Origin: Polyporus tsugae | Taxonomy: Eukaryota; Basidiomycota; Agaricomycetes; Polyporales; Polyporaceae | NCBI GenBank assembly: GCA_024305745.1 | Contig: JAHRBS010000013.1 | Span: 806,001 to 870,000, forward strand | Length of the DNA stretch: 64,000 bases | Direction of reading: 5' to 3' | Shown: in pieces, positions 1-27,151 of the stretch | Layout of the letters: every line of letters starts with the position of its first letter | How positions within the stretch are numbered: position 1 is the first letter of the stretch | The notes under the pieces: model-generated | What the model saw: only the letters and a program-made list of their open reading frames with translations | What the model was told of the DNA's origin: nothing | Database searches by the model: none | Translations under genes and position numbers: made by a program

Positions 1-250
1 TGCACGGATGGTTCAACGCGCGCCCTGAAAGACCGTCTGCTGCCCCGGTTGCGGGATCTGCGGAGACTGCTGTTCGGACTGCGGGTCTTGCCAGCACTAC
101 TTCCCCGGTCCTATGGAGGCTGCCTATGCTGCCGGCGAGTGTCTTATGATCTCCTGGTCGTTGACAACCGACAATGGCTTACGGTTACTACGGCAAGGGT
201 TTGGTCTCCAGGAAGAAGAGAATGAGCGCAGCGACCCGGCGGTTGTCACC
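1..250 (+). pseudogene. Decayed 3' end of a CxxC-repeat gene
   Basis: This is the truncated, degenerate copy of the last two exons of the Cys-rich gene at 8415-9911. Around bases 37-90 it reads CCPGCGICGDCCSDCG, nearly the same as the end of exon 7 in that gene. Upstream, a Cys codon has become TGA (GCG CCC TGA AAG against GCG ACC TGC AAG) and the next Cys is Val. After SDCGSC the Cys codons are lost (QHYFPG) and the frame shifts. The expected donor GTGAGTGTC is GCGAGTGTC. The terminal exon is still recognisable as GKGLVSRKKR near 190-225 (KGLASRKKQ in the intact gene) but its stop is gone. The copy starts outside the window, so its 5' part cannot be judged. Confidence 0.75.
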
Positions 251-6015: not shown

Positions 6016-8283
6016 GATATCCGAAGAGAATATGTGGGAGTGTCGGTGGCAGCGCAAGGCTGTAGTCGGAGGAGACCGCTTCGGGCGGGTGGATGTGACG
6101 ATGTCTCGAAGGCGCGCAACGTCCTTGTTATACCCCGCCGAACGGTAAGGATTAGAATCCGTCCACGAAGGACCTCAAAGCACAAGAGCCAGAACTCCGT
6201 CTAGGCACACGTGCAGAACGTGCAGAACGAAAGGCGTTCCATGTGGCCGCTACTAGATTCTCACAAGCGAACTGACCCGCACAGGAGGGCTGACGATGGC
6301 ATCATGACCTGAGGACCTTGGGTTAGCATGGGTTGGTTGGGAAGACGGAAGGACAAGCTATAAGTATAGTATATGCAAGATGCAAGATTTTGCAGGAGAA
6401 CAGGTCCCGTCGCACTGCGAGATTCAATTACGTCAAATACGACCTCCTGCCACCGGTGAGGGACGCACGCACCTGCTTCCTGAACCACGTCCTCCCACAG
6501 ACACTGCACCGTCGAGAACGTTCAGCCACGCTGGGCCGTACGACCTGACCGAGGACATCAGGCACTTGTCTTACACAGTCTCCCTCCCCTTGCGTATCCT
6601 TGAGTAATTGATCATACACATGTGGCTAGTCAGGATGAGCGTTGGCTACACGTCATGCTTTTCGGCGGTGTGCGTGTCCAGGATGAGCTGCCCCTTGACC
6701 TACGAGAAGTCCTAGTGGGGCGGAGGCCTTCGCCGAGGTGCTCGAGCGGGAGTTGGGGGTTACGCCTCGTTCTTCCATGGGGAACGCTAACCGTATTTCA
6801 TGGGTAACATCAAACCCTTGGCCTGAGGCCTCGTTGGTGGCGCAACGAAAAGGTGTTGGAAACGCTGGGACGTGCGCGTGAGGCCTTGATCATGAGGAAG
6901 TGACTCATTCCGAAGATGCCTAGAGCTGCGTAACTAGGCGAGTATCGTTAACTAATGTGCGACTGTCTTAGGAATCATGACATACCTCAGTCAATCCGAT
7001 ATTCAATCATATTGTTCAAAGCGTTGGTGACTGGGAGGGACTGACGACGGCGGGTCAAGGAGACTGGATAAGCGCCCCTCGGGAGCGATCGGGTGGGACG
7101 CGGGAACGACCGCGATCGAGATCGGGAGGTATGGGACCTGAATTCAACGGTGCCAGTGATCTAGGCCCACTGCTTGTTCAAGTTCAAGTTGAACGTAGCA
7201 ACTCGAAAGAGTACGTAAACACTCTGTCTTGGTACGGAATTAACTGAAGGTAAGCTATGTTTAAAGGGGAGAGTGTGTACTGAGTTAGTGTCGGTTTCAG
7301 ACAACCAACCGTGCACATCGGAAGTCCCAGTTTAGTGCGTCACCGTCTACTACTTTGTAGGGGAGAAGCTGGAGACGGAGGAGCCGCGTGCATCCGGGGT
7401 CGAGATCTGTGCAGGTTACCTCACCGACCGCGTCGAGCTGAAGGATATCCTCCATGACGCAGGCGTCCCGATTAGTACCGTACGTACTCTAGAAATCGGA
7501 ACTCTTTCCCTTGGAACAGGAAGCGTACGTGAAGGACCTAATCTCGAGCGGGTGGGCTATCCCAGGGGACGGGCCTGCGGGTGATGGTATGTTCTCCTAC
7601 TGCACGCGACCGCCTGACAATGACCACTCTAGGAACACGACATACGCGATTTCAAAAGGAAGGCCAGAACGGCGTACTTCACTTCATCGACATTAACCGG
7701 TTCCCCACATTGCCCGCAGGATGGGCGGCGTTCCCAACCCGATGACCAACCTCGACCGGTCACCACGTCAGTGCCGGCGACGCGCGAATGAGATGCAGAA
7801 CCAACGCCGCAACATCTCGCCGACGCGGGGTAGGGCCCGTGTCGCGCCACATGGTTGCGGTGACCTGCGCGTGCACCCATCCCGAAATGACCCTTCAAGC
7901 AACAGCATCGGGTCGGTGTACTTCAATAACGTCCGATTGCTCTCTCTGCATCGCACTCGGCTCGTGGGCAGAGCACACCGACTACGCTTCCTACTCGCGG
8001 TACGTACGGCATATGGACGGTGTTCCCTTCCCCGACTTGTCATTTGATAACGACACGCCGCAGCGTGGTTCTTACCAGTCACATCCCTTCCGGGAAAATA
8101 TTCGCACTGTGACTGCAGTGTGAACTGAACAGTGCGGTCTGGCTTGGACGGTATGCCAATGTCGGACAGCGCGGCTGACATGTTGCGTCCATGGGGTGAA
8201 CCGTCAAATGCCCGGACACCGTCCTGGCGACCAAGGGAGAGGCGCAGAGTGCAGAGTGTCGTACCAGTACGTCACCACTCCAA
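6016..8283. other. Long intergenic stretch with one coding-like fragment
   Basis: No complete gene was found. On the plus strand about 7361-7480 reads an open, protein-like frame (EICAGYLTDRVELKDILHD), and 7514-7590 reads LEQEAYVKDLISSGWAIPG. Together they look like two exons, or decayed pieces, of an unrecognised gene. A further coding-like run is at 6640-6760 (DERWLHVMLFGGVRVQDE). Flanking frames are broken, so a relic is more likely than an expressed gene. Confidence 0.25.
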
Positions 8284-8414
8284 CCCATATATGTCTTCTC
8301 AAGATACAGTCGGGCGGCCATGGCATATAAAGGATCGTACTGGGAGGTGGCCTATCCTCACTCAACACCCAAGTCTCACCTACTACAACTTACTTACAAC
8401 TTGCAATTCGCAAC
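8284..8414 (+). promoter_or_regulatory. Conserved promoter block of the Cys-rich family
   Basis: TATAAA lies at 8326-8331, about 89 bp upstream of the ATG. The block CCCATATATGTCTT (from 8284) with GATACAGTCG (8303-8312) and CATATAAAGGATCGT (8324 onward) recurs almost unchanged, inverted, upstream of the gene starting at 20795. In part it recurs upstream of 10915. This similarity extends well beyond a generic TATA box. Confidence 0.75.
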
Positions 8415-9911
8415 ATGGGGTATGTTGATTTTACCCGGCTCTCCAAACATTCGAGACTGACACTGATCGACGACTATGCAGGATCCTAGTTTCATTTGTA
8501 GCCATCGGCGCCACGGCGATCACTTGGAGCGTGGGGAGCATCGCGTACGTTGTTTCCAACAGCTCTCTCAAAGTTCGAGACTGATACTAATGATGGACGA
8601 TTATGCAGGGATCTACTGTCCGCTCTCCTACGTACGTCATTAGTCTTGATGGACTCAGGGTGAACGAACATGGCTGAAATACGTCTTCGTATAGCTATCC
8701 TGAAGTGGTTGGTGGCCAACTGTGGTTCCGTGATCTCTGGCGTCTCGGGATATCCCCAGTGCCTCTTGGATGGTATGTAATAGACGTCGCATTCGGGCCT
8801 ATGTCTACAGTTTTGATGTCGTCTTCGCAGCGGTTGTCAACTGCGCAGGCGTGATCCTCCCGTGCTTGGAATGTAACTGTTCGGGTTGCGACTCCTGCAA
8901 GGACTGCTGCTCGAGCTGCCAGTCTTGCGAGAGCTGCTGCTCCAGTTGCAAGTCGTGCAGTGACTGCTGTCCGAACGGCTGCGAGGCCTGGTGCAAGAAC
9001 TGCTGCTCCAGCTGCGGCTCTTGCCCAAGCAGCTGTTCGGATTGCGCGTCGTGCAAGGACTGCTGCTCTAGTTGCGGCTCCTGCCCGGCCGGCTGCTCGG
9101 ATTGCGACGCCTGCAAGTCCTGCTGTTCGGGTTCGAGTTGCGGCTCCTGTGGAAGCTGCCCGTGTGGCGGGTGAGTCGTCTCTCGTGATGCCCTGATTGT
9201 TGGAAACGGAAGGATCGCTCACCATTCTCAAAGGAGCAAGACCTCGTTCGGCGCCGAGCCGACCTCGGGGAACTGCGACGACTGCTGTGCCGGCTGCTTG
9301 TCCCAGATCTGCCAGAACTGTTGTTCGGCTTGCGGGACCTGCTCCAAGTGCTGCACAGACTGCGCCAAGTGCATGAGCTGCTGCCCCGGGTGCGGGACCT
9401 GCGGCGATGGCTGCTCGGATTGCGGGATCTGCTCGGACTGCTGCCCGACCTGCGATATCTGCGCCGGCTGCCCGTGCTGCAAGTGAGTGTTTCGCGGTGC
9501 CACGGCTGTTGCCCAACGGAAGATAGCTTACCATTTCCAAAGGAGCACCGGCAAGGCCTTCGGGAACCCCACTCCCACTCCCACTCCGTCCCCGTCCTGC
9601 CCCGACTGCTGTGTGAATTGCGGCGCTGACACATGCGCCAACTGCTGTGCAGTCTGCGGGTCCTGCTCCAACTTCTGTGAAGATTGCGCGACCTGCAAGA
9701 CCTGCTGCCCCGGTTGCGGCACCTGCGGCGACTGCTGCTCGGATTGCGGGATCTGCAAGGACTGCTGCCCCAGTAGCGGCTTGTGTGGATGCTGCCCGTG
9801 CTGCGGGTGAGTGTCTTGTGGTGCCTGATCGTTGACGACGCTCGGAGGATAACCTATCGTTCTCACAGGAGCTCCAGCAAGGGCCTGGCCTCCAGGAAGA
9901 AGCAGGACTGA
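8415..9911 (+). CDS. Membrane-anchored CxxC-array protein, exon-duplicated
   Basis: Eight exons (8415-8419, 8482-8544, 8609-8631, 8695-8772, 8831-9170, 9234-9482, 9543-9806, 9869-9911) join without a frame break to 354 residues. The N-terminus MGILVSFVAIGA is a myristoylation-type start (Gly2, Ser6) followed by hydrophobic segments to about residue 60. Residues about 60-340 carry some 90 Cys in CxxC spacing (for example SCKDCCSSCGSCPS) with almost no aromatic residues or His. Exons 6 and 7 are clear duplicates (both contain CCPGCGTCGD and SDCGIC) and begin with related linkers (SKTSFG, STGKAFG). The last exon gives SSSKGLASRKKQD, a basic tail. All array exons start and end in the same phase. 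I do not recognise a named family. Metal binding, palmitoylation or a disulphide mesh are inferences. Confidence 0.8.
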
Positions 9912-10819
9912 GAAGTCTCCGGATTCTTGACGACAACTGACCGTATTTCTTGGAAGTGACTCGCGATATGGACGATTCAAGGCTGATACTGCTCCTTCTC
10001 GGATATGCATATATGTATTCATGACACTGGACTGTCACATACCCCTGGTGATCGGAATAACATCGTTGGACTTTTGAATTACGTGACAGGTTCGGAGAGG
10101 TATCGAAGGTGACCATGAACGGTATTTCCAGGTGAAGGGGAAAACCGTGCGAAGGCACGCCCATAGAACAGCGGAGTATCGTGGCGGACTCCAACTGGGG
10201 CGACTTCTCGCGCCTGACCATTGCAGGGTATAGCAGTATGGTCGCGCACGTGTTTACGGTAGATATCTCTTCAAGCTGGAGTCGTGGATGGTGTTGATGG
10301 CGAGGCATTCGGAGATTCACCCGTGGCTGGAGCCTGAGGAGCCCCGGTACACGTGCTAGATATCAACGTATATCGACGGCGACGGGCATACGTAGCCTAT
10401 GCATGGACGTACCCATGTTTTCCATGCTGCGCCTGACCATGTCCAAATTGAGAGGACAAGCCCTCTTGGCCGAGAGGATTAACATTGCGTGGTCATTCTT
10501 CAATCACTGATTGTGCAGCAGCGTACGTACGCGCATGTTCTCGATTCGCCCTTCTCCCAGTCATGTACGGACCACATCGAAATAGTCTCATCCTTCAGGA
10601 ACGATACGCACGATTCTTAGGAGTCACCTCCCTTCCGCCACATACGCGCAATGTGATTCCAGAATGTGTGTGTTCGGGCTTCGAGGACATGCCGGAGTGA
10701 GTGCCTGGATGACGTGACGCTATGTGTCCAATAAACTGAGTGGTGCACCGACGAAAGCACGGAGCCCGTCCTGGTGACAAAGAACGAGTATCTTCCTAGT
10801 CGTGCGTCCCTTGGACGTC
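9912..10819. other. Intergenic
   Basis: No gene was seen on either strand. The long open frame running on the minus strand from 8695 to 10320 is the mirror of the Cys codon array. Confidence 0.45.
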
Positions 10820-10914
10820 CTCACGATGCAGTCGTGTGGTCAAAGCATATAAGAAATTGCATTGGGTAAGGGTTAGCCCACACTCACTGCACCCGGCGGT
10901 TCTCTTCTTGCGAC
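10820..10914 (+). promoter_or_regulatory. Promoter block, Cys-rich family member
   Basis: GATGCAGTCGTGTG at about 10825-10838 and CATATAA at about 10846-10852 match, in order and spacing, the blocks upstream of the starts at 8415 and 20795. TATA to ATG is about 67 bp. Confidence 0.65.
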
Positions 10915-11330
10915 ATGGGGTATGTCGATTCCGGCTCAGCTTCCATGGGTTCGAGTACTGATCGTCGACTATCCAGGATCCTGCTATCCACCGTATTAGG
11001 CACGTCGTTGATTTCAATGAAAGCCAGTCCAACAGACACGGCTGACATGCGTCTCCGTCCAGGTCTACTGGTGTGCCTGTTGTCAGCCGTCGGCGGCTTG
11101 CTTTCCGGCCTTGTGGGACTCCTCACATTCATCTTGGCAGGTGTGTAGCCAACGTTTCATATCGCGCCGTCGCTGAAGGTTTAACAACGTTTCCGCAGCG
11201 GTTGTATATATTTTAGGACGGCTCCTCTCCTGCTTAACCTGCGGAATGTGTCCATGTTGTGGGTGAGCATATTGTAGTGTGCTGTGTGTGTCGAGGACGC
11301 AAGCTGACTGACCTTCCTAGGGGACTATGA
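10915..11330 (+). CDS. Short membrane-anchored member of the Cys-rich family
   Basis: By comparison with its paralogues the exons are 10915-10919, 10977-10999, 11063-11140, 11199-11262 and 11321-11330, giving 59 residues. MGILLSTVLGLL carries Gly2/Ser6 as in the paralogues. A hydrophobic, Gly-spaced segment (LLSAVGGLLSGLVGLL) follows, and the end is SCLTCGMCPCCGGL. The 5-, 23- and 78-nt exons are exactly the lengths of the matching exons at 8415-8772. The second intron would use a GC donor (GCACGT) where the paralogue has GTACGT. It is 63 nt, so retention keeps the frame and adds 21 residues. The protein resembles small fungal proteins ending in a SCLTCG cluster and may be the ancestral form, without the array. 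Confidence 0.7.
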
Positions 11331-12426
11331 GCGAGGGGCTCTGGGAGCACCTGAGAGTTCCCGGAGCCCTGAAGACAACACCCACTGGGTACAGGCTGGC
11401 GATCTGGACAGTTCACGTTAGTTCCGCTGCTTCGATACGTGTTCATCACACTGGATTGTATACCCTTTATGATCGGAATGGCATTATGGGCTCTTGAATG
11501 AGGTAGGATCCTTGGGGATAACGCGCGGAAGAACGCCAAGGGGCTAGGACACCTAACTGCCCAGGAGCTACAGTCTATACCCTCACATTCCGTAGCGCTC
11601 ACCAAAGTGTGCTATTGAATGGAGGAGCCAGGATACGCCTTCATCGTGTGGACTTCAGTTCGCCCAGAGATAATAGCACAGAAATGGTCTTGTGAAATGC
11701 GATGGTGTGTGGCGAGAAATTTATGAATTTATGAATTGTCGGAATACTTCATATACGCTACAAACCGTCTGAACGACATGCTGCAGCAATATACTACGTG
11801 GCGATGGACATGTACACTGCCCAAGATGCAAACGGGACGACACGTTACTCACCTATAAAGTTCTCTCCCCAAAACAAATGTTGCACACAATCTTGGGTAG
11901 TCATGCGCTACAGCTCCCTACGACCAGGTTACCACAACGCGAATCATCCGGAAGATAGAAATATTGGTACTCAACGGAAGGCACGCTAACGATTACGGAT
12001 GTTGCCGCACAAACTCCTTTGGAGCAGAACAGAATCCCTGTAAGTTGCTTCCTTGCCACGCATGGCGCGGTAACATGATCTTTGGTGATAAAACGCTCGA
12101 TAAACATGCAACTCACAACGCAAAGCGTCTACTCCATCCACCCGCGTTCCGGTTGTCTTCGGATCGACCGCAATCCTCCGCCATGCGCGCCGGACGTAGG
12201 AAAGGGAAGGTTTGAGAGCTCGAGAGCAGTATAAGTAGACATATGGCCACAGAACGAACTTGTGTACATCTTAGTGGAAAACATATCGATACTACGCAAA
12301 CGTACCTGCCCCAAGCATGAGAGGCATCACCTCCGCCCTTGTGTATTCCCGAACTCCGAGTACGAGGCTGAGTCCAAGAAGACATCGGAAGCGCATAAGC
12401 GGATGAGTAATGAACTGGCTTCGTCT
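11331..12426. other. Intergenic
   Basis: AT-richer sequence between the small Cys protein gene and the 3' end of the convergent RBM25 gene. No gene or repeat was recognised. Confidence 0.45.
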
Positions 12427-15273
12427 TTAGTCGACCATCATCTTCTCCGTGTGAAGGCCTTCTCCGTACGCCATACTCTCGAAGAAGATCTGTCGCCATA
12501 TGCTGATGACGAACTCGGCGGCTTCCTCTTCGAGAACCTGAGGGCAACAAAAAGTTAGCAGAAAGTTTAAACGGAGGAAAGCTTGGGTTAGACAAGGATG
12601 ATGCAATAGGACACGCACCGGCTCGAGACCCTCGATGAGCTTGTGAGGTCCCTTGTGATCTTTCAAGTGTTCTAGGACGAACATAACGAGGTCGTCGTCC
12701 TCCAGTTCGCCAAGGTACTTGGTCATCTGGCGTTTGACGAGGGGTTCGAGCTTGCGGTCGATCATATTCTGTGCTCCGAGTAAGTGACGGAAGGACGAGC
12801 GAGGACCATGATGCACTCACGTCTGAAACACCGTCCCACCGAACCTTGCTCTTGAACAACGTCTCCTTGTCGCGTGGCACCTCCCCCCGGATCTTTTCGA
12901 GTCTCTCCTTCGCCTTTTCCCCACCTTCGGCCAGATCGAGCTTCGGCATTGGCACCTTCCGCTTCCTGATCGCTTCTTCTTCTTCCTCCTCCTGGCCGAA
13001 CACGGCCGCCTTCTCCTTCGGGGCACCCTCCTTCTGCCCTGTCTGAGCGAGCGACACGCTGAGCTTGACGGGCGCACCATCGTCGAGGAGCATCCCCGCT
13101 TTGCGCTGCTCCTCCTGCAGCGCCTGCATCTCGTCCATCTGTCGTGCGAGGAACGCCTCCGACTCCCGCCGCAGGTTGTCCGCCTCCCGCTCCTCATACA
13201 ACCGCGACTCCTCGTCCGCCGCTTGCTCGGTTGCCAGCCGCCGCGTTCGCAGGCTCCGCCACCGTGCACGGTCGGTGTAGAACGGCTCGTCGCTCTCGTC
13301 GTCGTCCCAGACGTCCAGGCGTGCGCGCATCTCTACCCGATCTCGCTCCTCCGCCTCCTTCATTGCACGCTCCCGGGCGATCGCCCGCTCAAGCGCCTGT
13401 ATGCGCGTGCGCTCACGAGGTTCATATCGACGTTCTCGCTGGAAGATGGTGAGTCCTGGAAATCATCATCGCATTCTCCAACGCAAACACTCACGTCTCT
13501 GTACGAGTTCTCCTCATCTCGTCTCCGAGCCTCCCTCCTCTCCTGCTCCAGCTCCTCGTCCGTCTTCCCGGGCCGCACATTCGTCTGTCTGTCCGAGCTC
13601 GGCGTCCGGCCCCCCTCATCCGCCTTGACGAAGCCGACGGGCTTGCTGTACCCCTGCACACCCATTCCGAATCCCTTGGCACCATTGGGAGACTCCGGCT
13701 GGCCCTGCGCCTGGGGCTTGCCCCACTCCCGCACCTTGGGACCCGACGGTGCGGCGAGGACGTTCGGCATCTGCTCGCGCACGTCGCGCATCTTCTCCCG
13801 CTCGCGCTTCGCCGCCCGCTCGCGGAACTGCGCGATCTCGGTCATCACCAGACCGCGTTGGGTCTCGGGCAGGTCGGCTTCCTGCAGATCGTGCAGATGC
13901 GGGGGGATAACGTACTTCTCCCTGTCCAAGAGTCCGCTGCTGGCCGCTTCCGCCGACTTCTTGTTGATGTCGCCGACTAGCACGTCCACCTTCACCTGCG
14001 CCTGGCGCTGCGCCTCGTCGTCCGCCTGATGGGGGTCAGTGCGTTTAGACACCGTTCTATAAATAAGGGCTACGGAATGGCGACACGACCCATGCACACT
14101 GCCACCGGAGACGTATTTGTGAAACACCGTGTCCCATCCCGAGCATATTGTGACGGCCAACGACGACGAAGGTACCAATTGTGTTAGGGGCTGATTACAT
14201 GTCATGATATGCATGTAATCAGCGTATAACGCGTTTCAGCGCCCCACAATTCCCAAGTTATGGCCAATAATCACCATGCAACGACACCAGAGGCATGGAC
14301 TTGTGGGACACCATGTTACATCTTATATCAATCGTGGCCTTTGGCCACTTGGGACAGAGGTGCTGCTTTCCGTCTCAGGCTTGTCGCATGCTGGTTACAT
14401 GTGATAATATGGATGTAACAAGCATGTAAAGCGATTTCTGCGATCCATTGAAAACGCGATTACCATGGGACGTTAGGCAAAACCGCTATCAAATGTGGCC
14501 TTCACGATGCGACACGGTGCCCCACAGGTCCATGCCCCCGGTGCGATGGGACAAGGTTTTTCACACGTCGACGCCTCCGGTGTCCCGCCGAGGGCGTATA
14601 CCACCCCTTTCAAGACTGCAAAGACAAACCTCGCATGCCCTGCTCGGTGTGGTATACGCCTCGGGGGAATATGGCATATCATCACCCGGAGGCAAGCGTC
14701 TACGAGATAGAGTAGGACCACGTACGTCCGTCCGCATTTTCTGCGCTGAGTATGCATCCAGGAACATCTTCGTCCGCTCGTCTGCTTTGACCTGAGATGG
14801 TGGGGATCAACGCGGCACTCGGACAGGATGTAAGGGGGCGGACTCACGAGCAGCTTCTTGTTTACGCATCCATCCTCCAACGCCGGCAACTCCACGTTGT
14901 TCAGGAGGGCCATTGCCCGCAGAGCGCTGTCAGGGTCTTGGAACTCTGCGAATCCGAAGCCCTGGGGCTTGTTTGCGGGAGTGATAAGTCGCTTGAAGGA
15001 CGTGATAGGACCGCATGCCTGCCCCAGCTTCAATATCGCACGATGTCGGTCAATGCAACGGACTGTACGCACCTTGAGCAGCTCATTCAAGAATGAATCC
15101 GTAATTCCACCAGATATCGAGCCAATGAAGAGCGTTGTCGGCTTCGGCTGTGGCGGTACGAAGGCCGGAGGATGCTGCATTTGTTGTTGCGCTGCGAGAG
15201 CCGAAATTGAGGGACCCTGGCCATACGATTGCATAGGAGGACGGAGACCAAGTCCTAACCGATTTTGCTGCAT
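12427..15273 (-). CDS. RBM25: RBM25-type splicing factor (RRM, RE-rich, PWI)
   Basis: The protein opens with a Gln/Pro-rich leader and an RRM (TTLFIGSISGGITDSFLNEL, then GFGFAEFQDPDSALRAM) split by a short intron after LLK. The middle is rich in Arg/Glu (RERRYEPRERTRIQALER, DADNLRRESEAFLARQ-like blocks) with DDDESDEPFYTDR. The C-terminus is a PWI domain (DRKLEPLVKRQMTKYLGEL, VLEEEAAEFVISIWRQIF). This RRM-RE-PWI order defines RBM25, a U1 snRNP-associated nuclear factor that promotes 5' splice-site use. Introns are short except one of 700 nt (14026-14725) filled with inverted and direct repeats. Junctions checked by frame include VSD|NMIDRK and GLEP|VLEEE. The start is the ATG at 15273, and the stop follows HTEKMMVD. 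Confidence 0.9.
14091..14665. repeat. Inverted/direct repeat cluster inside an RBM25 intron
   Basis: Two hairpin units of about 34 nt lie exactly 200 bp apart (14190-14223 and 14390-14423). The first has a perfect 12-bp stem, GCTGATTACATG with CATGTAATCAGC, and similarity between copies continues some 20 bp downstream. Around them are longer inverted arms: 14101-14138 pairs with 14541-14583 (CACCGGAG, GTCCCATC), and 14292-14322 pairs with 14506-14537 (GGCATGGAC, TGTGGG). A further pair is CGTATACCAC near 14595 with GTGGTATACG near 14650. No transposase frame is present. The pattern suits nested MITE-like non-autonomous elements. Confidence 0.65.
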
Positions 15274-15955
15274 ATTCGACGTCGTGATGTGGGAGAGAGT
15301 ACAGGGAGGTTATGGTAGGAGGCAAGATGCTGGGAACGGCGGCGGCTGCTTGGCGGAAGTGGTGAATTATGTCGGAGATTAGGAAAGACGGGTAACGCAT
15401 GAATCTCCGCTTCAAGAATAGTACTCCGACATTTTTAAAGCCCAGGCATCACCTCCAAATTTGAGTGCATATACTCACCCTCCAAAAAACAACTCCGGGC
15501 TCCGACTCCTCCTGAAACCTCCCCGCTAGCGAACCCACACATGCAAACCAACTTTGGATGTCTGGGGAAGTGGGGAAAGGTGCGGACCGCCGCGATCTCA
15601 TACCAATTTCGCTGACCCCCTGTCGATTGGAGTTTGTAGCAAAACATAGGCACATAGAGCGGGCTCAGTGTGCTCTACCCGTTGCGCAAGGTTTATGGCT
15701 GGTTCATGGTGTCAAGGTTGCTCAGTTGTCCAACTTCACCCACCGGATGGAGTGAAAGTGGGTTCCTGAACGACGTCGGGAGAGTGCTGTGCTCCATCCG
15801 CTACTTGGCCCCTCTTGGCCGGCATACGATGGTCAGCAGACCAGCCGCAGCGAAGGTTCCGAAACGGAGGAGATCGCCAGCGGGCCCACGGATTCCCAAG
15901 AGCATCATGAGGTGATGGAAGTGAAAATAGCCGGTGCGCGTCCATCAATTCCGCG
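15274..15955. other. Divergent intergenic region
   Basis: This separates the divergent RBM25 and trehalase genes. No extra gene was seen. Confidence 0.4.
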
Positions 15956-15956
15956 C

Positions 15957-15966
15957 GAGTATATAA
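15957..15966 (+). promoter_or_regulatory. TATA box of the trehalase gene
   Basis: GAGTATATAACATC lies about 75 bp upstream of the ATG at 16037, the usual distance in this window. Confidence 0.5.
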
Positions 15967-16036
15967 CATCTATACCTTCCCTCACATCGACCGACTCGAC
16001 TTTGCACTCGACTCGATCGCCGTTCGGACTGGCAGC

Positions 16037-18878
16037 ATGGTACATTGGTCGGTTCTTGCTCTTTCTTCTGGGCTTCTTCACGGTGCTGTGCGCGCTCTGC
16101 CTCAAGCCTCGGTCAGTAGCGCGACCGCACCGTCCGTCACGTTCTCGACCGCTGTTGCAAGCCCCAGTGCGCCGCTTTCCTCGGCCCTCCCCTCCCAAGT
16201 CGCCTTGCCTCCCAAGCAGGCGTGGTGCCCGAGCGAAATCTTTTGTGCCGGAGAGGTATGTTCCTTGTCCCCTGACGTCAGTGGCGCCGAAATGCAGGAA
16301 GCTGATCGGATGGCCATTGACCGGCCCAGGTGTTACAAACAGTCAACCTTGCTGCCGCATATGCCGACCCCAAGACTTTCGTCGACAAACCCACTTCCAA
16401 ATCTTCTCAAGAGGTCTTGTCTGCATTCGATGCGATCAGCAACACAACTGGCACAGAAGGTGACATCGTGAACTTTATCGACAACAACTTCCGTGGAGAG
16501 GGTCTCGAGCTCGAGGCTGTTGCGCTCGCGAACTTCAACGACAACCCCACCTCCTTAACCAACATCTCCGATCCACTTGTCAAGGCGTTCTCGCAGACCG
16601 TCCATGGGTACTGGAAGCAGCTCGCTCGAAACACCAATCAGAGCGCGCTCTGTCCAGAGGGTACACAGTCAGGGTCCTGCGAGAGCACTCTCATTCCTCT
16701 CAATCACACCTTCGTCGTTCCTGGCGGTCGATTCCGTGAGCAGTGTACGTACGCTCGTCCTTCATTGAATTTATACAGAACTCATACCATCATACAAAGA
16801 CTACTGGGATTCCTACTGGATTGTGCAAGGTCTTATCAAGTCTGGGCTCTACGATGTCGTGAAGGAGACGCTCGAGAACTTCATGGACGAGCTCCAGAAC
16901 TTCGGCTTCATCCCCAACGGCGGCCGCATCTATTGTATGTGCCTCATGGGCGCGCGCATCACCCCCGTACTTACGTCATTTCACAGATCTCAACCGTTCC
17001 CAGCCTCCTCTCTTCATTCACGTAAGTGCGGCGCCGACGTCCAGTGTCTAGCCCTCTCGTTAAAGGACAGTCATGTTCCTGGATGGTCTCAGCGTTCCCT
17101 CGACGAGCGTGGAAGGGCGGTTGAGCGGGGCCGAGTCAGGACTCTCCTGGAACATGACGCTCATTTGACGAGAAGGATTCCATGTGCCGCCGGTCGTCTT
17201 GCATGATATGGAGATGACTGAAACGCCGTTTTGACAGATGCTCTCCGACTATGTTGCGGCCACAAATGACACCTCCGTTCTGGATCGAGGTCTGCCCCTT
17301 GCTGAGAAGGAGCTCGCGTGGTGGGCAACGCACCGCACGGTCAACGTCACGAGCCCCTTCACGAACGCGACTTATGCAATGGCACGATACGCAGTCAACA
17401 ACACTGCGCCACGCCCGGAGTCTTACCTGACTGGTAAGTGTGCATCTGTCTGTTGTGCATGTGAGCGTCTCGCTGACTGTCATTGAAGACTACCTCACTG
17501 CGAACGACCCGACGTTGTCCCCTCTCACTGAGGACGAGCGCTCGAATCTCTACGCCGAGCTCGCGTCTGGTGCCGAGTCCGGCTGGGACTACTCGTCGCG
17601 CTGGGCCAAAGAGCCCTTTGCGGCGACCGCGACGAGCCAGAACCCGATCCTGCGCTCGCTCAACATCCGGAGCATTATCCCCGTCTGCCTGAATAGCATC
17701 CTCTACAAGGCGCATGGCCTCCTTGTTGATCTCTACGACACGCAAAACAACGCGAGCGCGGCCAAGACGCACGAAGATGCAGCCAGTCGCATCCGCACTG
17801 GTATCCTCGACCTTCTGTGGGATGGGGAGAAGCTCGCATTCTACGACTTCAACCTGACCGCGAACGCGCGCAGCACGATCTTCTCCGCTGCGACGTTCTA
17901 CCCTCTCTGGAACGGGATCGTCCCCGACGAAATCGTCGCGTCGAGTCAGAACGCGTTCGGGTTCTTCGCCTCACTCAACATGGTGCTCAACCGCTACAAC
18001 GGCACCTTCCCCGTCACGTTCCTCGAGACGGGTCTGCAATGGTACGCGTCCCGTCATGCTGAGACGTCATGGGATCATGTGTTCTAACTTATCTTTGGAC
18101 TTTTCAGGGATGCCCCCAACGCTTGGCCCCCGCACCAGTACGTTGCGCTCGAGGCGCTCCGTGCGCTTCCTTCGAACGTCTCTGGGGGTGCGCTTCCGAC
18201 GCCCAACGGCGACCAATCGACGTACAACCTGATCCCCGCCAACCAGATCGGCATCGCCGAGGACGCGCTCCCCGTCCAGGCCGTCGCGGGCGGGAAGAAC
18301 GCGAGCAGGACGGGGTCTGCGGCCGACATCAACAAGCTCGATGGCACTGTCGTCAACGGAGGCAACAAGACGGACGGCGAGGGCTGGGCGGCGGCGCTGC
18401 AGCGTGAGCTTGCGAACCGCTACCTCGCGAGTGCGCTGTGCAGCTGGCACGCGACGGGCGGAGAAATCCAGGGTCTCCTCCCCAGGCTGTCGGACAAGGA
18501 GCTGAACGTCACGCAGAGCGTGAACAACACCGGAAACGTGAGCGTGCCTTGCTCCCGTCCGTGTAACGCGTCTGGCTTACTGTATCCGTTCGCGTCCTGT
18601 AGATGTTCGAAAAGTTCTCGATCTCCGATATCGATTCTGCGGGCCGCGGTGGAGAGTACACCGTCCAGGCCGGGTTCGGGTGGACGAACGGCGCGGCGCT
18701 CTGGGTAGCGAGCACCTACGGCGACAAGCTCGTAGCGCCGCAGTGCCCTGACCTCCTTGCGAACGCCGCAGCGACGACGGGCGGTAGTGGCGGCGGCAAG
18801 AACGCTGCTTCGAGCGTGCGCGCCACCCCTGTCATTGCTGGCGCTCTCGCGCTGTTCGCTGCATTGATGGTGCTCTGA
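16037..18878 (+). CDS. GH37 trehalase, GPI-anchored type
   Basis: Eight exons (16037-16255, 16330-16744, 16800-16934, 16987-17021, 17238-17433, 17489-18041, 18108-18537, 18603-18878) splice in frame. The product hydrolyses trehalose to two glucose. A signal peptide (MVHWSVLALSSGLLHGAVRA) precedes the GH37 domain. The two family signatures are present: PGGRFREQYYWDSYW (split at Q|Y by an intron) and LQWDAPNAWPPHQ (split at W). A late GRGGEYTVQAGFGWTNG block is also typical. Many N-glycosylation sites and a C-terminal Gly/Ser stretch followed by a hydrophobic tail (VIAGALALFAALMVL) indicate a GPI-anchored, outer-surface enzyme rather than the cytosolic neutral form. The 216-nt intron at 17022-17237 is longer than the rest and holds a short inverted repeat (GTCATGTTCC with GGAACATGAC). 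Confidence 0.92.
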
Positions 18879-19395
18879 CGTACGGGCGCATGAGTCCATG
18901 ATGCTGTAACTGACGATGTTTACGATGAATTGTGCGATTGGACGACGACGATGATGAAGGAAGGTGTAGGAAAAGTAGTACGACATCCTGAGTACTTATA
19001 CCTATATCCCTTTTCTTGGTGATCTAATGGAACTAAGGCTATCAGCGCCGCTTCAGATCCCTTCCTCGGCCACGGCCCTCATGTTTGACGTTTCGGCCTG
19101 TGAAGTGTGATACAGTTCTGTACACGCTTGGTTTTGGGACATTGCAGATCGCAGTACGCCCTAAGTACATTTGGGTAACGCAGCTCCGACGTCAAATTCA
19201 CCACTTCCAGATTCACGCGCGTCAAACCGTAGTTACCTGCGATATCTCTCTAGTACAGTTAAAAGTCCATGGTCATCACAAAGGGTATATAGCATGAATA
19301 CATAGTCAAGAAGGAGCGTAATCAACTGGAATCATCCATATCGCAAGTCAATACCAAGAAAAATAAGGCGTTGTCTTCAAGAGCTCGGGGAACCC
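18879..19395. other. Convergent intergenic region
   Basis: This lies between the 3' ends of the trehalase and the minus-strand Cys-array gene. No gene was seen. Confidence 0.4.
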
Positions 19396-20795
19396 TCAGC
19401 TCTTCGCGGAGTCCTCCTCGGCGCTACTCTGGAAGGGCCGGTCAATCGTCGCTCGTCATCAACAACTTGAACTATAGCGCTACGAGACACTCACCAGCAG
19501 CATGGGCAGCATCCAGAGGACTTGGACCCGCAGCCGGATGACGTGGACCCACAGCCCGAGCAGGAGTTGTTGCAGGACCCGCAACCGGAACAGCCGTTCT
19601 TGCAGGCCCCGCAAAGGTCTGTGCAGTTACTGCAACAGTCCCCGCAGGTCCCGCAGCAGTCCTTGCACGACCCGCAGCTGCAAGGGCAGGAGCCGCACAG
19701 GTCGGTGCAGTTCTTGCAGCAGTCGGTGCAGGACCCGCAACTCGGGCAGGACTTGCAGCAGTTGCCGCAGGACCCACAAACGTCGGTGCAGTTCTTGCAA
19801 CAGCTACCGCAGGATCCGCAAGCTTCGGTGCAGTTCTTGCAGCAGTCGGTGCAGGATCCGCAGCTAGCCGTGCAGGTCTTGCAGCAGGACTCGCAGGAGG
19901 CGCAACTGGTGGGGCACGACTTGCAACAGTCGTCGCAAGACCCGCAGATGTCGGTGCAGTTCTTGCAACAGTCCGTGCAGGACCCACAGCTAGGGCAGGA
20001 CTTGCAGCAGTCCGTGCAGGACCCGCAGCTAGGGCAGGACTTGCAACAGTCTGTGCACGACCCGCAGCTGGGGCAGGACTTGCAACAGTCGCTACAAGAC
20101 CCGCAAGCGTCCGTGCAGTCCTTCAAGCAGTCCGTGCACGACCCACAGCTGGGACACGACTTGCAACAGTCCGTGCACGACCCACAGCTGGAACACGACT
20201 TGCAACAGTCGGTGCAGGACCCACAGCTAGGGCAGGACTTGCAGCAGTCCGCGCAGGACCCGCAGCTAGGGCAGGACTTGCAACAGTCGCTACAAGACCC
20301 GCAAGCGTTCGTGCAGTCCTTCCAGCAGTCGCTGCATGACCCGCATGACCCGCATGACCCGCAACTGGGACAGGACTTGCAACAGTCGCTGCAAGAGGGG
20401 CAGGACCCGCAGCCTGAACAGGAGGGGCATGAACAAGAGGGACAGGACCCGCAGCCTGAACAGGAGGGACAGGAACAAGAGGGACAGGATCCACAGGACC
20501 CACAGGACCCACAGTTACAGGACCCACAGGCCCCGCATGGTCCACACGGATCCGAGCAGCATTCGCAGAATAGGACCGAGACGAGCGATCCGAGGAAGGA
20601 AAGCAAGGCGCCGACTCCTTGCAACAGGTAGCCCAACGCATCTGTAGGAAGATATACTCAGCGCCATGTCCATTCGACTTCCGTCCACTGGCACTGAACC
20701 CTATTCGGACGTACTGAGCAGGTTCGAAAGTAGGGCACTACATGATCGTTGGTCAGTATCAGTCTCGAGCCAGATAAGAAATCGACGTACCCCAT
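19396..20795 (-). CDS. Membrane-anchored CxxC-array protein with 39-bp tandem repeats
   Basis: Exons are 20791-20795 (ATGGG), 20715-20737 (23 nt), 19495-20641 and a short last exon ending at 19396. The product has about 400 residues. The N-terminus MGALLSNLLNALGYLLQGVG has Gly2/Ser6 and continues hydrophobic (ALLSFLGSLVSVLF) to about residue 42. The rest is a Cys array, about one third Cys, dominated by a 13-residue unit such as CCKSCPSCGSCTD encoded by a 39-bp repeat. The array ends CCPCC at a GTGAGTGTC donor, the same phase and sequence as in the paralogue at 8415. The last acceptor is ambiguous (CAG or CAGAG): the latter gives the tail SAEEDSAKS, the former an immediate stop. An internal ATG at 20636 would skip the myristoylation start and is less likely. 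No function is established. Confidence 0.8.
19540..20520 (-). repeat. Tandem 39-bp coding repeat array
   Basis: Units close to GTGCAGGACCCGCAGCTAGG plus 19 further bases (plus-strand reading) follow each other through much of the exon, with spacer variants. Some neighbouring units are almost identical (for example around 19981-20040 and 20215-20275), which points to recent unit gain by unequal exchange or slippage. Near 20336 a 9-bp unit CCGCATGAC is repeated three times. Confidence 0.8.
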
Positions 20796-20935: not shown

Positions 20936-22732
20936 AGAAAGCTCCTCTGCTACCCTCGGTGGCTGCCAAGGCGGGGGCCGCGTCTTCGGGGGGGGCACTC
21001 ACCGCGAAGCTTATTGGACGCGCGTATGACGTTCTCCGCACTATGTCCTGGAAGCCTGGGCATATACATATACTGCAATCACATCGCGAATATTTGCCGG
21101 AAGGGATGTGACGGGCAACATCATCACGCGCGTGGTTACAGAAGACTTGGGAGGCCGACGGGAGAGCGACCAATGCATGCGTTGCTGCTCGAGTAGTGAG
21201 CCTAGTCAGCGTGCTCTGCGCATGAACTTAGTGCGATGGGAGAAATGCACCTATCTATGAACATGTATTGAGGAACAACCAGGCAATGCTCAGGCCTTAG
21301 TCCTCTGGATCTAGACAGAACCGAATGGAGCCGATCTTACCGGCACCGAGTCCCGGGTGACCAGATGCATTTCTCCATCGTGAGGTACTCGCGTAATCTG
21401 TTGTGTCTGCCACGCACCACGAAGCCCCAGGGTCAGAGACGTAGCTATACCGGCAGCAAGGCAGCGGATGGCTCACAGATCGACCAATGACCATGGGTCG
21501 AAGATATTCAGTCCAGGCTCCTTGACTTCGCAGCTGGAGGCTGCGAGTTTGAGCTTTGAAGGTTCCGTCAGGTTCTGGCAGCGCCCTTGCTGCGGCACGC
21601 ACTCGTGTTGCACGGTGAACGCATACTTCCTATGTTTTGGAACCTGAGACATGTCTGGCGGGACGAAGGGGTGAGCTCCGAGTCCAAGGGCGTTGTCATC
21701 TGGGTTGCAGACATACCATTTTGGTCTGATTCTGCCATCTCGCTGGCCGTCGCGACTATGGTTCTCTCGAACTCTTCACGGTAGTCAAGCTCTCTTTCTT
21801 TGCACTAGCAGCCGGTATCTATAGTAGGACGCATTGAAAACCGCCGACCGTCGCTTATGATGGCAGCCTACGTCCGACTCTTCCTGAACGTGGACAAGAT
21901 GTGTCAGAAAAATGTATGCGGACCATTCGATGTAGAACCAGACTCACGATAAGTGACGAGGGGTATTCGAATTCCAGTGCTGGGGTGTTTAAGTAGGAAC
22001 CTGAGGTCCTCGGAGAAGGCCCGGGACGGCCGTTGTATCGGACCGTCAAAGGGTGTCACGCCATCCGTGACTGTTGTCAAGGCGGCGAAGGTCACCGTAA
22101 CGCCTTTCGTCATTCAGGCGCTGAACGGTTCTGCCAGGGCCCCGGCATGTTCGTTTCTTCCTTCCATTGGTTGTTTCGTCATGAACATACGTTCGATGTC
22201 CAAGTACAATTTCACCACGTGCGAGCATCATGCTTGTGCATGAATCGGAGCCAACAAGAAACCACATATACTAGTGGTACGTGGCATCTCGTGCGTATCT
22301 TCAAGTTCGTGTTATCCAGTTCTAAGATACCTTTGCAGCCCACCAGTGCTCTTTCTGATGGTCGAAACCATATGTATTTCAAAACACAACACTTGTTGTC
22401 ATCTAAAAAACCTTGTCCACCTGTCGTCCAACCTTTTGCATGACGTTCTGGATCGGCAAGCACTAAGCGTTTTGCACCCTCCGAGCTAAAGCTACTCCAG
22501 AGTCCATGACACAACATAGACTCTGCGCGCATCACTGTCAGTGATTCAATGCGGCTGCGTTCCACCTGATTGCCGCCTGTATAGGTCGCGGGCAAGTACG
22601 GCCGCCCTCCACAGCCTCTTGTCCACCAACCTCTTTAAACGTCCCCACTCAATCAGCGACGCACAACACGAGTGCTCTAGCACTTACTTGCTCACGCCTG
22701 CACAGATCATCCCTGGAAGCAAGTTCGCAGCG
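20936..22732. other. Intergenic, no gene seen
   Basis: About 1.8 kb with no frame that could be assembled into a gene and no clear repeat. Confidence 0.4.
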
Positions 22733-24444: not shown

Positions 24445-27151
24445 TCAGACTTCCTGCTCGTACACGTCCCACTCCCCATAGGCATCGTCCTTCTCCGCCT
24501 CCTCCTCCACATCATCCTCGCCCTCCGCGTCCACCTCATCGTCGCCCTCGTGCACATCCGCGAGCCCCTTTCCAGATGGAGGCATCGCAGTGGTACCCAG
24601 CACAAGACTCGCGGAACGCGACTTAGACTTGGCGTGTGGCACTTGGCCGACACCTCCGCCGCCCTCCTCGACGATGAGCATGCCCTCCCCGTCGCTCTTG
24701 TCATCGATAGTATACAGGCCCCCATCGTCGTCCTTGTCTTCTTCGGTTCCCGGGAGCTGGTAGGACGGCCCTTCGTCCGTGAAGAGGTCCTTGAGCGCGT
24801 TGTAGTTGATCCGCTTGCTGTACTTCGGGTTCTTCTTGATGAGATTACGCACGGACTCCGCCGCTGTGCTCCCATGGGGTGTCGACGCGTCGCGGGGCTT
24901 GTTGTTCGTTTTCCGTCGCTGTTGCCACGAGCAGATACGAGTGAGTCCAAAGAAGACGAAGAAGGCAGAGCACATGTAGGAATATATCCGCCACCCGAAA
25001 TCAACATGTACAAACACGGATTTGAAGGTGGCGGAAAAGTGCCGGAGCGGGATACGAACCTTGCGCGTCTTTTTATCCTTTTCCTGTCCCTCCTGCTGTT
25101 CCGCCTTCGCTGTTCGGTACCGTTCAGCGACCGCGCATACAAAGCTACGCATTGCAAAAGGACACCAATATCTTACTCACCTGCAATGGCTTCTAGATAG
25201 TCCTTGTTCATCTCAACCCACACGCGTTCCTTGATGTGCACCTCTTCCTCTGTGAGGATGAAGCAGTCGAGCTCGTCTTCGTCGAGCCCAAGTAGCTCGT
25301 CGTCGCCTGTGTAATGCGCCAGTCGTCGCTGTTCGGCCTCATCCAGCGCAGAGTTGAGGAGCGAGCTCTGTGCGTTCTCGAGGAAGTCGGTAACTTCTTG
25401 GGTGACCGCCGCGTCCATTGTCTCCTCTATGGGAGATGGTTCGCGCACGGGCATCGCCAGAGCTTTGTCAGGGAGCGCATCACCGTCCGCGTGCGGTTGA
25501 GGAGCCGTGGGAGCTAGCGATTGGGGCTGCGACTGCTCTGGCGGATTAACTAACGTGAGGTCGGGTTCGAGCAGTGAAGGGTCTACCAGAGGAGGTCCCA
25601 TAGGCTGAGGATGTCCCATCTGCGGAGGATGTCCCATCTGCGGAGGATGTCCCATCTGCGGAGGATGTGGCATGTCGAACTGGAGCTCTTCACCTTCCTC
25701 TGGGAGGAACAGCGGCAAGGGCTGGCTCGTACCGACAAGGATACCTTGGTTCAGAAGAGTCGGGTCAAGCGACGGGAGGAATGGTGGTGGATGCTGCGCG
25801 CAGGGGCCTGCGCCGTCGAGCTGCGCGTACTGGGCAGCGTCCGGTATCTCCTCCTCCTCCTCCTCCTCGTCGCTCTCGCCGCGCTTCCGTTTCTTCCGCT
25901 TCCCTTTGCCTTTGCCTTTGCCTTTCGCCTTCACGTTCTCGTCGGGGTCCACGCCCCCGTTCTCCGCGATCAGTCGCTCCCGCTCCTCCTTCTCCTTCCC
26001 CTTCGTGTACGCCGGCGGGTCCATCTCGTCCTCGAGCCACACGTTCCGGAAGTCCGCAAGCGTGAGCGCACCGCTCGGTGTCTTCCGGAACTCCTCCAGC
26101 CGCTTCTTCAGCGTCGTGTCCGCGATCTTCACCACCTGTACGATCTCCGCGACACTCCGCCGGAAGTTGTTCATGCGCGCGGCCAGCAGCAGACACGCGC
26201 CGCAGATGCCCGCCGGTCGCCGCCCTTTCGTCATCCAGTCGCGGTCGAAACGCTGCACGAGGCGGACGGCGTCCATGGCGACTTGGTGCGTCTCCTCGCC
26301 GAACTCGAGGAGCGCGGCGAAGCGGGAGATGTAGTGCGAGGGGTCAACGAGGGGCAGCCGGAGGTTCAGGGTTTGCACGAGCTGGAGGTAGGTGTGGCCC
26401 AGTTCGAAGACGTTCACCTGAGACGGGAGTGTCAGTCGAGGGGGGAAAGGTAGCATACAAGGACATGACATACCTGGAGTAGGTCCGAGAAGTCAATAAG
26501 CATATAGTTCCTCGTCTCCTTCTGTCTGCACGCGACGTATAGGCACACGGCCACGACGTTCATGCTCTTCCTGCCCTTCGTGAACTTGTGCTCGACCGCG
26601 AGGGTGTACAGTCGCGTCGCGGCGAGACAGACAATTTCCGACAACCTCAGCGCGGTCGCAACCTGCTGTATCTTGCGACTTGCTGCGTCCGAATTGCCGT
26701 TAGGGAGCACATACAGCAGGACGAGGGCGCTTGACTCACCGTTAGCAATGGTCTGCTCTCTGCTCTCCGTGTTGCCCCTGTTCCCAAACATCCCACCCAT
26801 CCGTGCGCGTGCTGGGACATGTTAGCATGGTATCTCGCGTGGTCTGGGACGGAATAGAGACGTACTTGCGCCTTGGGCAACGAAACTCCCCTGCACCATC
26901 GCCGCGCCCGTGCTCGTTTCCCCGAACGTCACCTATCCTCATACATGTCGTCAACGCATAGAAACTGAGAGAAGAATCGCTACGCACCTCATTCACGATC
27001 GTGTTCTCCTCCACCACCGTCCCGCACTGCACGCAAAACCCGTTTCCCGCAGCGGCATCGTACTCGATGACCGTCCCCCCGCAATCCGTACACACAGTCT
27101 GCGCAGCGTCAGAGGCTTGTGATCACTCACACAGCGAGTCGTGCTCACCAT
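24445..27151 (-). CDS. BRF1: TFIIIB subunit BRF1
   Basis: Eight exons: 27149-27151 (ATG only), 26988-27098, 26866-26932, 26740-26811, 26474-26682, 25181-26417, 25060-25109 and 24445-24917. The protein starts with a TFIIB-type zinc ribbon (VCTDCGGTVIEY, FCVQCGTVVEENTIVNE). Two cyclin-fold repeats follow (KIQQVATALRLSEIVCLAAT, TKGRKSMNVVAVCLYVACR; then RRPAGICGACLLLAARMNN). A Lys/Glu-rich linker has KGKGKGKGKRKKRKRGES and an acidic run. The C-terminal BRF1 homology block contains ALKDLFTDEG. It recruits TBP and RNA polymerase III to tRNA and 5S genes. Oddities: a coding first exon of one codon (ATG|GTGAGC), and an 18-bp tandem repeat encoding GHPPQM at about 25606-25670. Confidence 0.93.

Follow-up and report, generated by a model that had tools for sequence, protein, structure and literature searches.

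The 64,000-nucleotide (nt) stretch of Polyporus tsugae contig JAHRBS010000013.1 analysed here (positions 806,001 to 870,000; hereafter the window) carries three genes, A, B and C, and one relic of a family whose proteins have a hydrophobic N-terminus that is followed, in four of the five members, by a long Cys array. A cluster of three genes plus a relic had been proposed in the initial annotation. All four are present, but the family is larger, since two further members, D and E, lie outside the window on the same contig (C2). D and E were found by whole-genome searches (43.2 Mb, 18 contigs) with exon-end and start-site patterns. The five genes spread over about 116 kb of the contig, and five is a lower bound for this genome.

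The gene models were spliced from the DNA alone, by homology and splice signals, and we infer transcription and splicing from them. A, B and C all splice coherently where the initial annotation had placed them (Table 1), and their models begin with the MGILVS, MGILLS and MGALLS that it had read. All seven introns of A are GT-AG introns of 58-64 nt in the spliced model. The model of B requires a GC-AG second intron, and its stop is, by eye, earlier than the aligned stop of its relatives; B is perhaps decaying. An alternative reading of the last intron of C, again by eye, gives 128 Cys. By blastn the relic matches the DNA of D (72.5% in a piece of 211 alignment columns, with shorter pieces besides). 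The matched part runs from about 90 bases outside the left window edge to position 182, and the tail of the relic is recognisable by eye to about 230.

Table 1 Genes, exons and promoter elements of the family. Positions are those of the window unless prefixed with C2; aa, amino acids.
Feature	Position	Strand	Description	Basis
Gene A	8415..9911	+	354 aa, 94 Cys, C-terminus RKKQD	Spliced model and homology to D, E
Exons of A	8415-8419, 8482-8544, 8609-8631, 8695-8772, 8831-9170, 9234-9482, 9543-9806, 9869-9911	+		
Promoter block of A (TTCCG...ATATTCG)	8088..8104	+	Starts 327 nt upstream of ATG	Five-gene alignment
TATA-like box of A	8325..8330	+	At -90	
Gene B	10915..11330	+	59 aa, 6 Cys; MGILLS, hydrophobic segment and CxxCxxCPCCGGL; no array	Spliced model and N-terminal alignment
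Exons of B	10915-10919, 10977-10999, 11063-11140, 11199-11262, 11321-11330	+		
Degenerate promoter block of B	10633..10648	+	At -282	
Gene C	20795..19396	-	401 aa, 129 Cys; many 13-residue units in array; no KKXX tail	Spliced model
Exons of C	20795-20791, 20737-20715, 20641-19495, 19426-19396	-	Last acceptor uncertain	
Promoter block of C	21086..21104 (C2:827086-827104)	-	Exact match to family pattern	
Gene D	C2:799,029-800,066	+	235 aa, 65 Cys, C-terminus KKKRD	Outside window, about 7 kb upstream, same contig
Gene E	C2:711,798-710,678	-	260 aa, 63 Cys, C-terminus RKKTD	Outside window, about 94 kb upstream, same contig
Relic of array gene	1..182	+	Partly out of frame; starts left of window	Cys-rich frame and blastn to D DNA

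Shared anatomy of genes and proteins

The first coding exon is 5 nt long in all five genes and reads ATGGG, or ATGGC in E. An intron of 53-72 nt comes next, and all five genes also have an exon of exactly 23 nt; between the two exons A, unlike the other genes, carries an extra one of 63 nt (8482-8544). Skipping of this exon keeps the frame and gives a product starting MGDLLSALL, which aligns with the starts of the paralogs, MGILLSTVL (B), MGALLSNLL (C), MGALLSAVL (D) and MAALLSALL (E). Since skipping restores a paralog-like start without loss of frame, MGILVS, although encoded as initially annotated, would be either an innovation specific to A or the start of one of two isoforms. In every gene an ATATA[A/G] box at -68 to -93 precedes the start codon with no other ATG between them, which speaks against an internal start.

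The N-terminal form common to the five proteins is M[G/A]xL[L/V]S followed by a hydrophobic segment of about 25-45 residues with few charges. The best 19-residue hydropathy mean (1.86-2.48) falls within the first 41 residues in each of them, and Lys and Arg are absent from residues 1-27 of every model; the exon-skipped form of A has a Lys at position 13. The order of a hydrophobic segment and then Cys clusters, initially described for A, B and C, stands; B has no array. An N-myristoyl anchor had also been proposed. The myristoylation pattern fits A, B, C and D but fails in E, which starts with MAALLS and whose Ala2 is not myristoylatable, and for the family as a whole the anchor is hence not supported. 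Start-codon and donor-site preferences favour an ATGGG-GT context. Since this context alone favours Gly2, its presence in the other genes argues only weakly for a lipid anchor.

The 485-nt upstream regions of the five genes were aligned and compared pairwise by blastn. They have in common a block, TCAC..TTCCGG..ATATTCG..GTGA, which starts at -282 to -327 and is degenerate in B. A second block is missing from A, whose CCAAT lies elsewhere, at -259; this block reads TCCAATAA in B, C and E and TCCAACAG in D. The best E value was at most 2e-4 in seven of the ten pairs, 0.002 for A-D and B-E, and 0.34 for B-D. A 19-bp core pattern, with one mismatch allowed, has four sites in the genome, exact ones upstream of C, D and E and one with a mismatch on contig C9; the site of A, with a 1-bp insertion, and that of B, with several changes, escape it, and the reversed pattern, used as a control, has none. 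No regulon emerged around the pattern. The metallothionein genes of Tetrahymena subfamily 7a likewise share a nearly private upstream motif (PMC1808422), and by this analogy co-regulation of the five genes is plausible.

Cys makes up 24-32% of the residues in A, C, D and E. The initial count of about 90 or more Cys in two arrays, with CxxC and CC spacing, is borne out by A and C. Most Cys residues take part in CxxC (79/94 in A, 117/129 in C, 51/65 in D and 51/63 in E), 28-41 per array protein are in CC, and CxC accounts for 10 in A, 13 in C, 11 in D and 4 in E. Ser, Gly and Cys abound in the arrays, which contain no His and have one to four aromatic residues each (four in A, one in C), in line with the near absence of both that had been noted. 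The commonest run in A, D and E is CxxCxxCxxC (10 residues, 4 Cys). Counted with overlaps, it occurs 12 times in A, 28 in C, 8 in D and 8 in E, against shuffle means of 0.17-0.39 (0.29 for A and 0.39 for C, with maxima of 5 and 6 in 2000 shuffles). In the array of C, runs of five and of three Cys predominate, and Cys runs of the family often abut as CC. N-glycosylation sequons (N-x-S/T) number six in C, one each in A and E, and none in B and D.

Array growth has involved homologous exons in A, D and E, but 39-bp units in C. In the former three genes the two final array exons are homologous, 249-267 nt long, and end in CPCC in five of the six cases and in WPCC in the sixth (E). The array of C is a single 1147-nt exon with many 39-bp (13-residue) units; its AlphaFold2 model was uninformative (mean predicted local distance difference test score 46). 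Long antisense open reading frames (ORFs) of 555 and 386 aa, rich in Ala and Gln, lie opposite the arrays of A (8695-10362, minus strand) and C (19471-20631, plus strand) and are probably a by-product of repeated TGC codons.

For an estimate of selection, the two final array exons plus the tail were compared in pairs among A, D and E. The ratio of nonsynonymous to synonymous substitution rates (dN/dS) is 0.35 for A-D, 0.55 for A-E and 0.38 for D-E. Conservation extends to 52/56, 47/57 and 47/57 of the Cys columns, respectively, against 85/128, 45/122 and 47/126 of the others. By these measures the arrays look like selected protein. At the C-terminus, A, D and E have Lys at both -3 and -4, which is the form of a dilysine (KKXX) retrieval signal.

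Database searches and comparison with metallothioneins

The family had been called undescribed, and the searches made found no characterised family to which it belongs. No Pfam family, ferredoxin families included, matches A, C, D or E at E≤1, and a search of solved structures with D gave a sole match up to E 1, at 0.38. The large protein database was queried with D and the C-array ORF, and not with A, B or E. Among 5.77 billion proteins, D has 430 word-sharing candidates, none at E≤0.01. Of 7995 candidates scored for the C-array ORF, three proteins reach E≤10, the best at 0.7. We judged all three to be convergent Cys repeats: one has a transmembrane-like stretch and a CxxC array, one is a zinc-ribbon protein and one a Ser/Cys repeat. 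The match at 0.7 is a 413-aa protein sourced from the Joint Genome Institute, with PF16472 (DUF5050); a CxxC array of about 50 residues comes after its transmembrane-like stretch, and this layout, the same as in the family, is probably convergent. No published description of the family was recognised in searches of the open-licence PubMed Central (PMC) literature.

The reach of these negatives was gauged by two controls. In phmmer at the same database size, A, D and E link mutually (E 7.5e-70 to 9.7e-24), and paralogs of the A/D/E kind, about 42-52% identical, reach E of about 1e-24; C is linked to none of them, as the composition correction removes its score. This control covers the scoring step and not the word-sharing step. 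Since C fails to score against its own paralogs, the negative search is weak for C-like proteins; for proteins like A, D and E, where their length is suitable, it is fair. As a control of the database, the neighbouring trehalase retrieved 2652 proteins at E≤1e-50 among 7994 scored, annotated polypores included. Since no significant homologs were found although annotated polypore proteins are present, the family would either be restricted to a lineage or lack annotation elsewhere; with the database clustered at 90%, nearer Ganoderma members may hide in clusters, and genes without annotation would be missed.

Within the genome, the start-site pattern with up to one mismatch occurs at 18 places, namely A, B and C (exact), E (one mismatch) and 14 others, and misses D; the 3-kb loci of the 14 others hold no CxxC array, and three of them have unrelated Cys-rich frames. 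The exon-end pattern occurs at eight places, seven in A, C, D and E and one, without an array, on contig C15. A protein search of the genome with an exon of A gave seven matches, all inside A, D and E, and a search with the array of C found the C locus only, twice.

Metallothioneins are described as proteins with about 15-30% Cys and few aromatic residues (PMC12097635). The Cys content of A, C, D and E and their one to four aromatic residues per array agree with this description; the arrays lack His, and their Cys lie in CxC, CxxC and CC motifs, as is usual in the superfamily. On the other hand, the HeptaCys, Neurospora-type and TmMT 7-Cys patterns have no match in the five proteins, and the hydrophobic N-terminus of all five and the 235-401 aa of the array proteins depart from a hydrophilic, low-molecular-weight type. 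Since the tested fungal Cys patterns and hydrophilic character are absent, we do not file the family under metallothioneins. The initial argument that CxxC spacing speaks against a metallothionein holds for the fungal CxC and heptaCys types but is not general, as Paramecium PMCd1, a Cd-metallothionein, is built on CX2C motifs and Tetrahymena subfamily 7a, whose members their authors tentatively named Cd/Zn-thioneins, has most of its Cys in CC/CCC clusters (PMC12097635, PMC1808422).

Among fungi, Tremella mesenterica TmMT and Cryptococcus neoformans CnMT1/2 are also long modular Cys-rich arrays grown by repeat amplification, long metallothioneins being built by such modular amplification, and the TmMT gene likewise has short exons and introns (PMC4755600). 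TmMT, however, is a Cu-thionein with 48 of 57 Cys in CxC, whereas our array proteins have 4-13 Cys in CxC and no 7-Cys unit; unlike for the present family, neither a hydrophobic N-terminus nor a dilysine tail is mentioned for TmMT and CnMT1/2 in the available text (PMC4755600). Agaricomycete heptaCys metallothioneins such as AcMT1/2 share with the family the fungal class, introns of about 50 bp and internal duplication, but are of up to 59 aa (PMC12508003), and their C-x4-C-x-C-x2,3-C-x-C-x4-C-x-C is absent from all five family proteins. PMCd1 and the 7a proteins resemble the family in their length, repeated modules and CxxC or CC/CCC spacing, and 7a in its near-private promoter motif, but they come from ciliates, are described as hydrophilic and have a different module, and no homology is shown (PMC12097635, PMC1808422).

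Proposed function and alternatives

We tentatively propose, as a reading that may well be right but in which our confidence is limited, that the family, known so far from this Ganoderma-type genome alone, provides membrane-attached, cytosol-facing thiol arrays that act like metallothionein and favour divalent metals. The N-terminal hydrophobic segment would hold the protein on an internal membrane, and the Cys array would sit in the reducing cytosol, where CxxC runs can form tetrathiolate sites and may act as a buffer for soft divalent metals (Zn, Cd) more than for Cu(I). The KKxD tails of A, D and E would have these three proteins retrieved by COPI to the endoplasmic reticulum (ER) or early Golgi. 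Since the CxC-rich TmMT is a Cu-thionein and the CC/CxxC ciliate proteins are, or are tentatively named, Cd-thioneins (PMC4755600, PMC1808422, PMC12097635), we favour a preference for divalent metals. At three to four Cys per divalent ion, simple arithmetic suggests a capacity of roughly 23-31 ions for A and 32-43 for C. Engineered membrane tethering of metallothioneins has raised metal accumulation in yeast (PMC5451056). The myristoyl-GFP-tethered plant metallothioneins used there resemble the family, in its putative placement, as thiol-rich proteins on a cytosolic membrane face, but they are engineered, lipid-anchored and at the plasma membrane (PMC5451056).

Several observations weigh against this proposal. 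The homologous introns of A, D and E are 58-75% identical and the exons 62-84%, that is, about alike, and the A-D substitutions at codon positions 1, 2 and 3 (37, 31 and 45) show a mild third-position bias; the signal of protein selection is therefore moderate, and Cys conservation may be inflated by alignment anchoring on Cys. B and C are without KKXX, no reading of the last intron of C gives one (by eye), and conservation of KKxD is known from three related sequences. A signal peptide or type II anchor at the N-terminus would place the array in the lumen, where disulfides compete with metal, and the six N-glycosylation sequons in C would be compatible with such a placement.

The strongest rival is a secreted or wall-bound, disulfide-rich structural protein that cross-links like keratin-associated proteins, although we consider it unlikely. 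The N-terminal segment is compatible with ER targeting, and the Ser-, Gly- and Cys-rich arrays and the sequons of C would suit it. However, B and D have no sequon and A and E one each, no Lys or Arg precedes residue 28 in the five models (the exon-skipped form of A has its Lys at 13), and the hydrophobic stretch exceeds, by the general rule, that of usual signal peptides; KKxD tails, moreover, are meaningful only in the cytosol. A lipid-anchored scaffold, with Gly2 myristoylated, many Cys S-acylated and the array lying along the membrane, is improbable. A, B, C and D match the PROSITE N-myristoylation pattern, and Cys residues adjoin the hydrophobic segment, but, apart from the Ala2 of E and the confounding of Gly2 with its splice context, residues 7-17 are hydrophobic where substrates typically carry a hydrophilic linker, and 60-130 regular Cys far exceed the known S-acylated strings.

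That the arrays are low-complexity TGC/CTG repeat expansions without function is still less probable. The 39-bp tandem copies in C and the long antisense ORFs show repeat-like DNA, B and the relic look decayed, and the likeness of introns to exons fits such an origin; against it stand dN/dS values below 1, Cys conserved above other residues in three pairs, and introns, promoter blocks and tails shared among the genes. Least of all do we expect a polynuclear iron-sulfur or other redox array with CxxCxxC triads. CxxCxxCxxxCP occurs five times in A, nine in C, four in D and two in E, and the count in C lies above all 2000 Cys-fixed shuffles, but C is a tandem repeat whose copies are not independent, the counts of A, D and E are reached by 76, 164 and 1038 of 2000 shuffles, respectively, and the Pfam search at E≤1 was empty.

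In its fullest form, the membrane-bound thiol-array proposal describes a new class of metal store that is naturally tethered to a membrane. Arrays of about 60-130 Cys would supply the thiolates on the cytosolic ER/Golgi face, held there by a hydrophobic N-terminus, with dilysine recycling in three members, CxxC runs tuned to divalent metals and a family-private promoter element, all restricted to a Ganoderma lineage. We consider this conjunction of features doubtful. If true, it would be nature's equivalent of the metallothioneins that have been engineered onto membranes, and would show that fungi have a second way, other than CxC, of building long arrays that bind metal; it would also offer a candidate at the molecular level for how a mushroom genus of medicinal use handles metals. 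In terms of annotation, the family illustrates that first exons of 5 and 23 nt can hide a clustered gene family.

Neighbouring features

Between B and C lies a GH37 trehalase gene (15950-18878), with PF01204 on two exon ORFs. Among the best 120 of its 2652 matches, the product is 91% identical to that of Ganoderma sinense (top) and 83% to that of Dichomitus squalens, with lower values in other polypores, which places the host in Ganoderma or very near to it; the product has an N-terminal signal-like segment and a C-terminal hydrophobic segment that, by eye, resembles a glycosylphosphatidylinositol-anchor signal. An ORF with an RRM domain (PF00076, E 4.8e-6) occupies 14476-15309 on the minus strand, and a short CPICGG repeat runs in one frame of the plus strand at 25579-25701.

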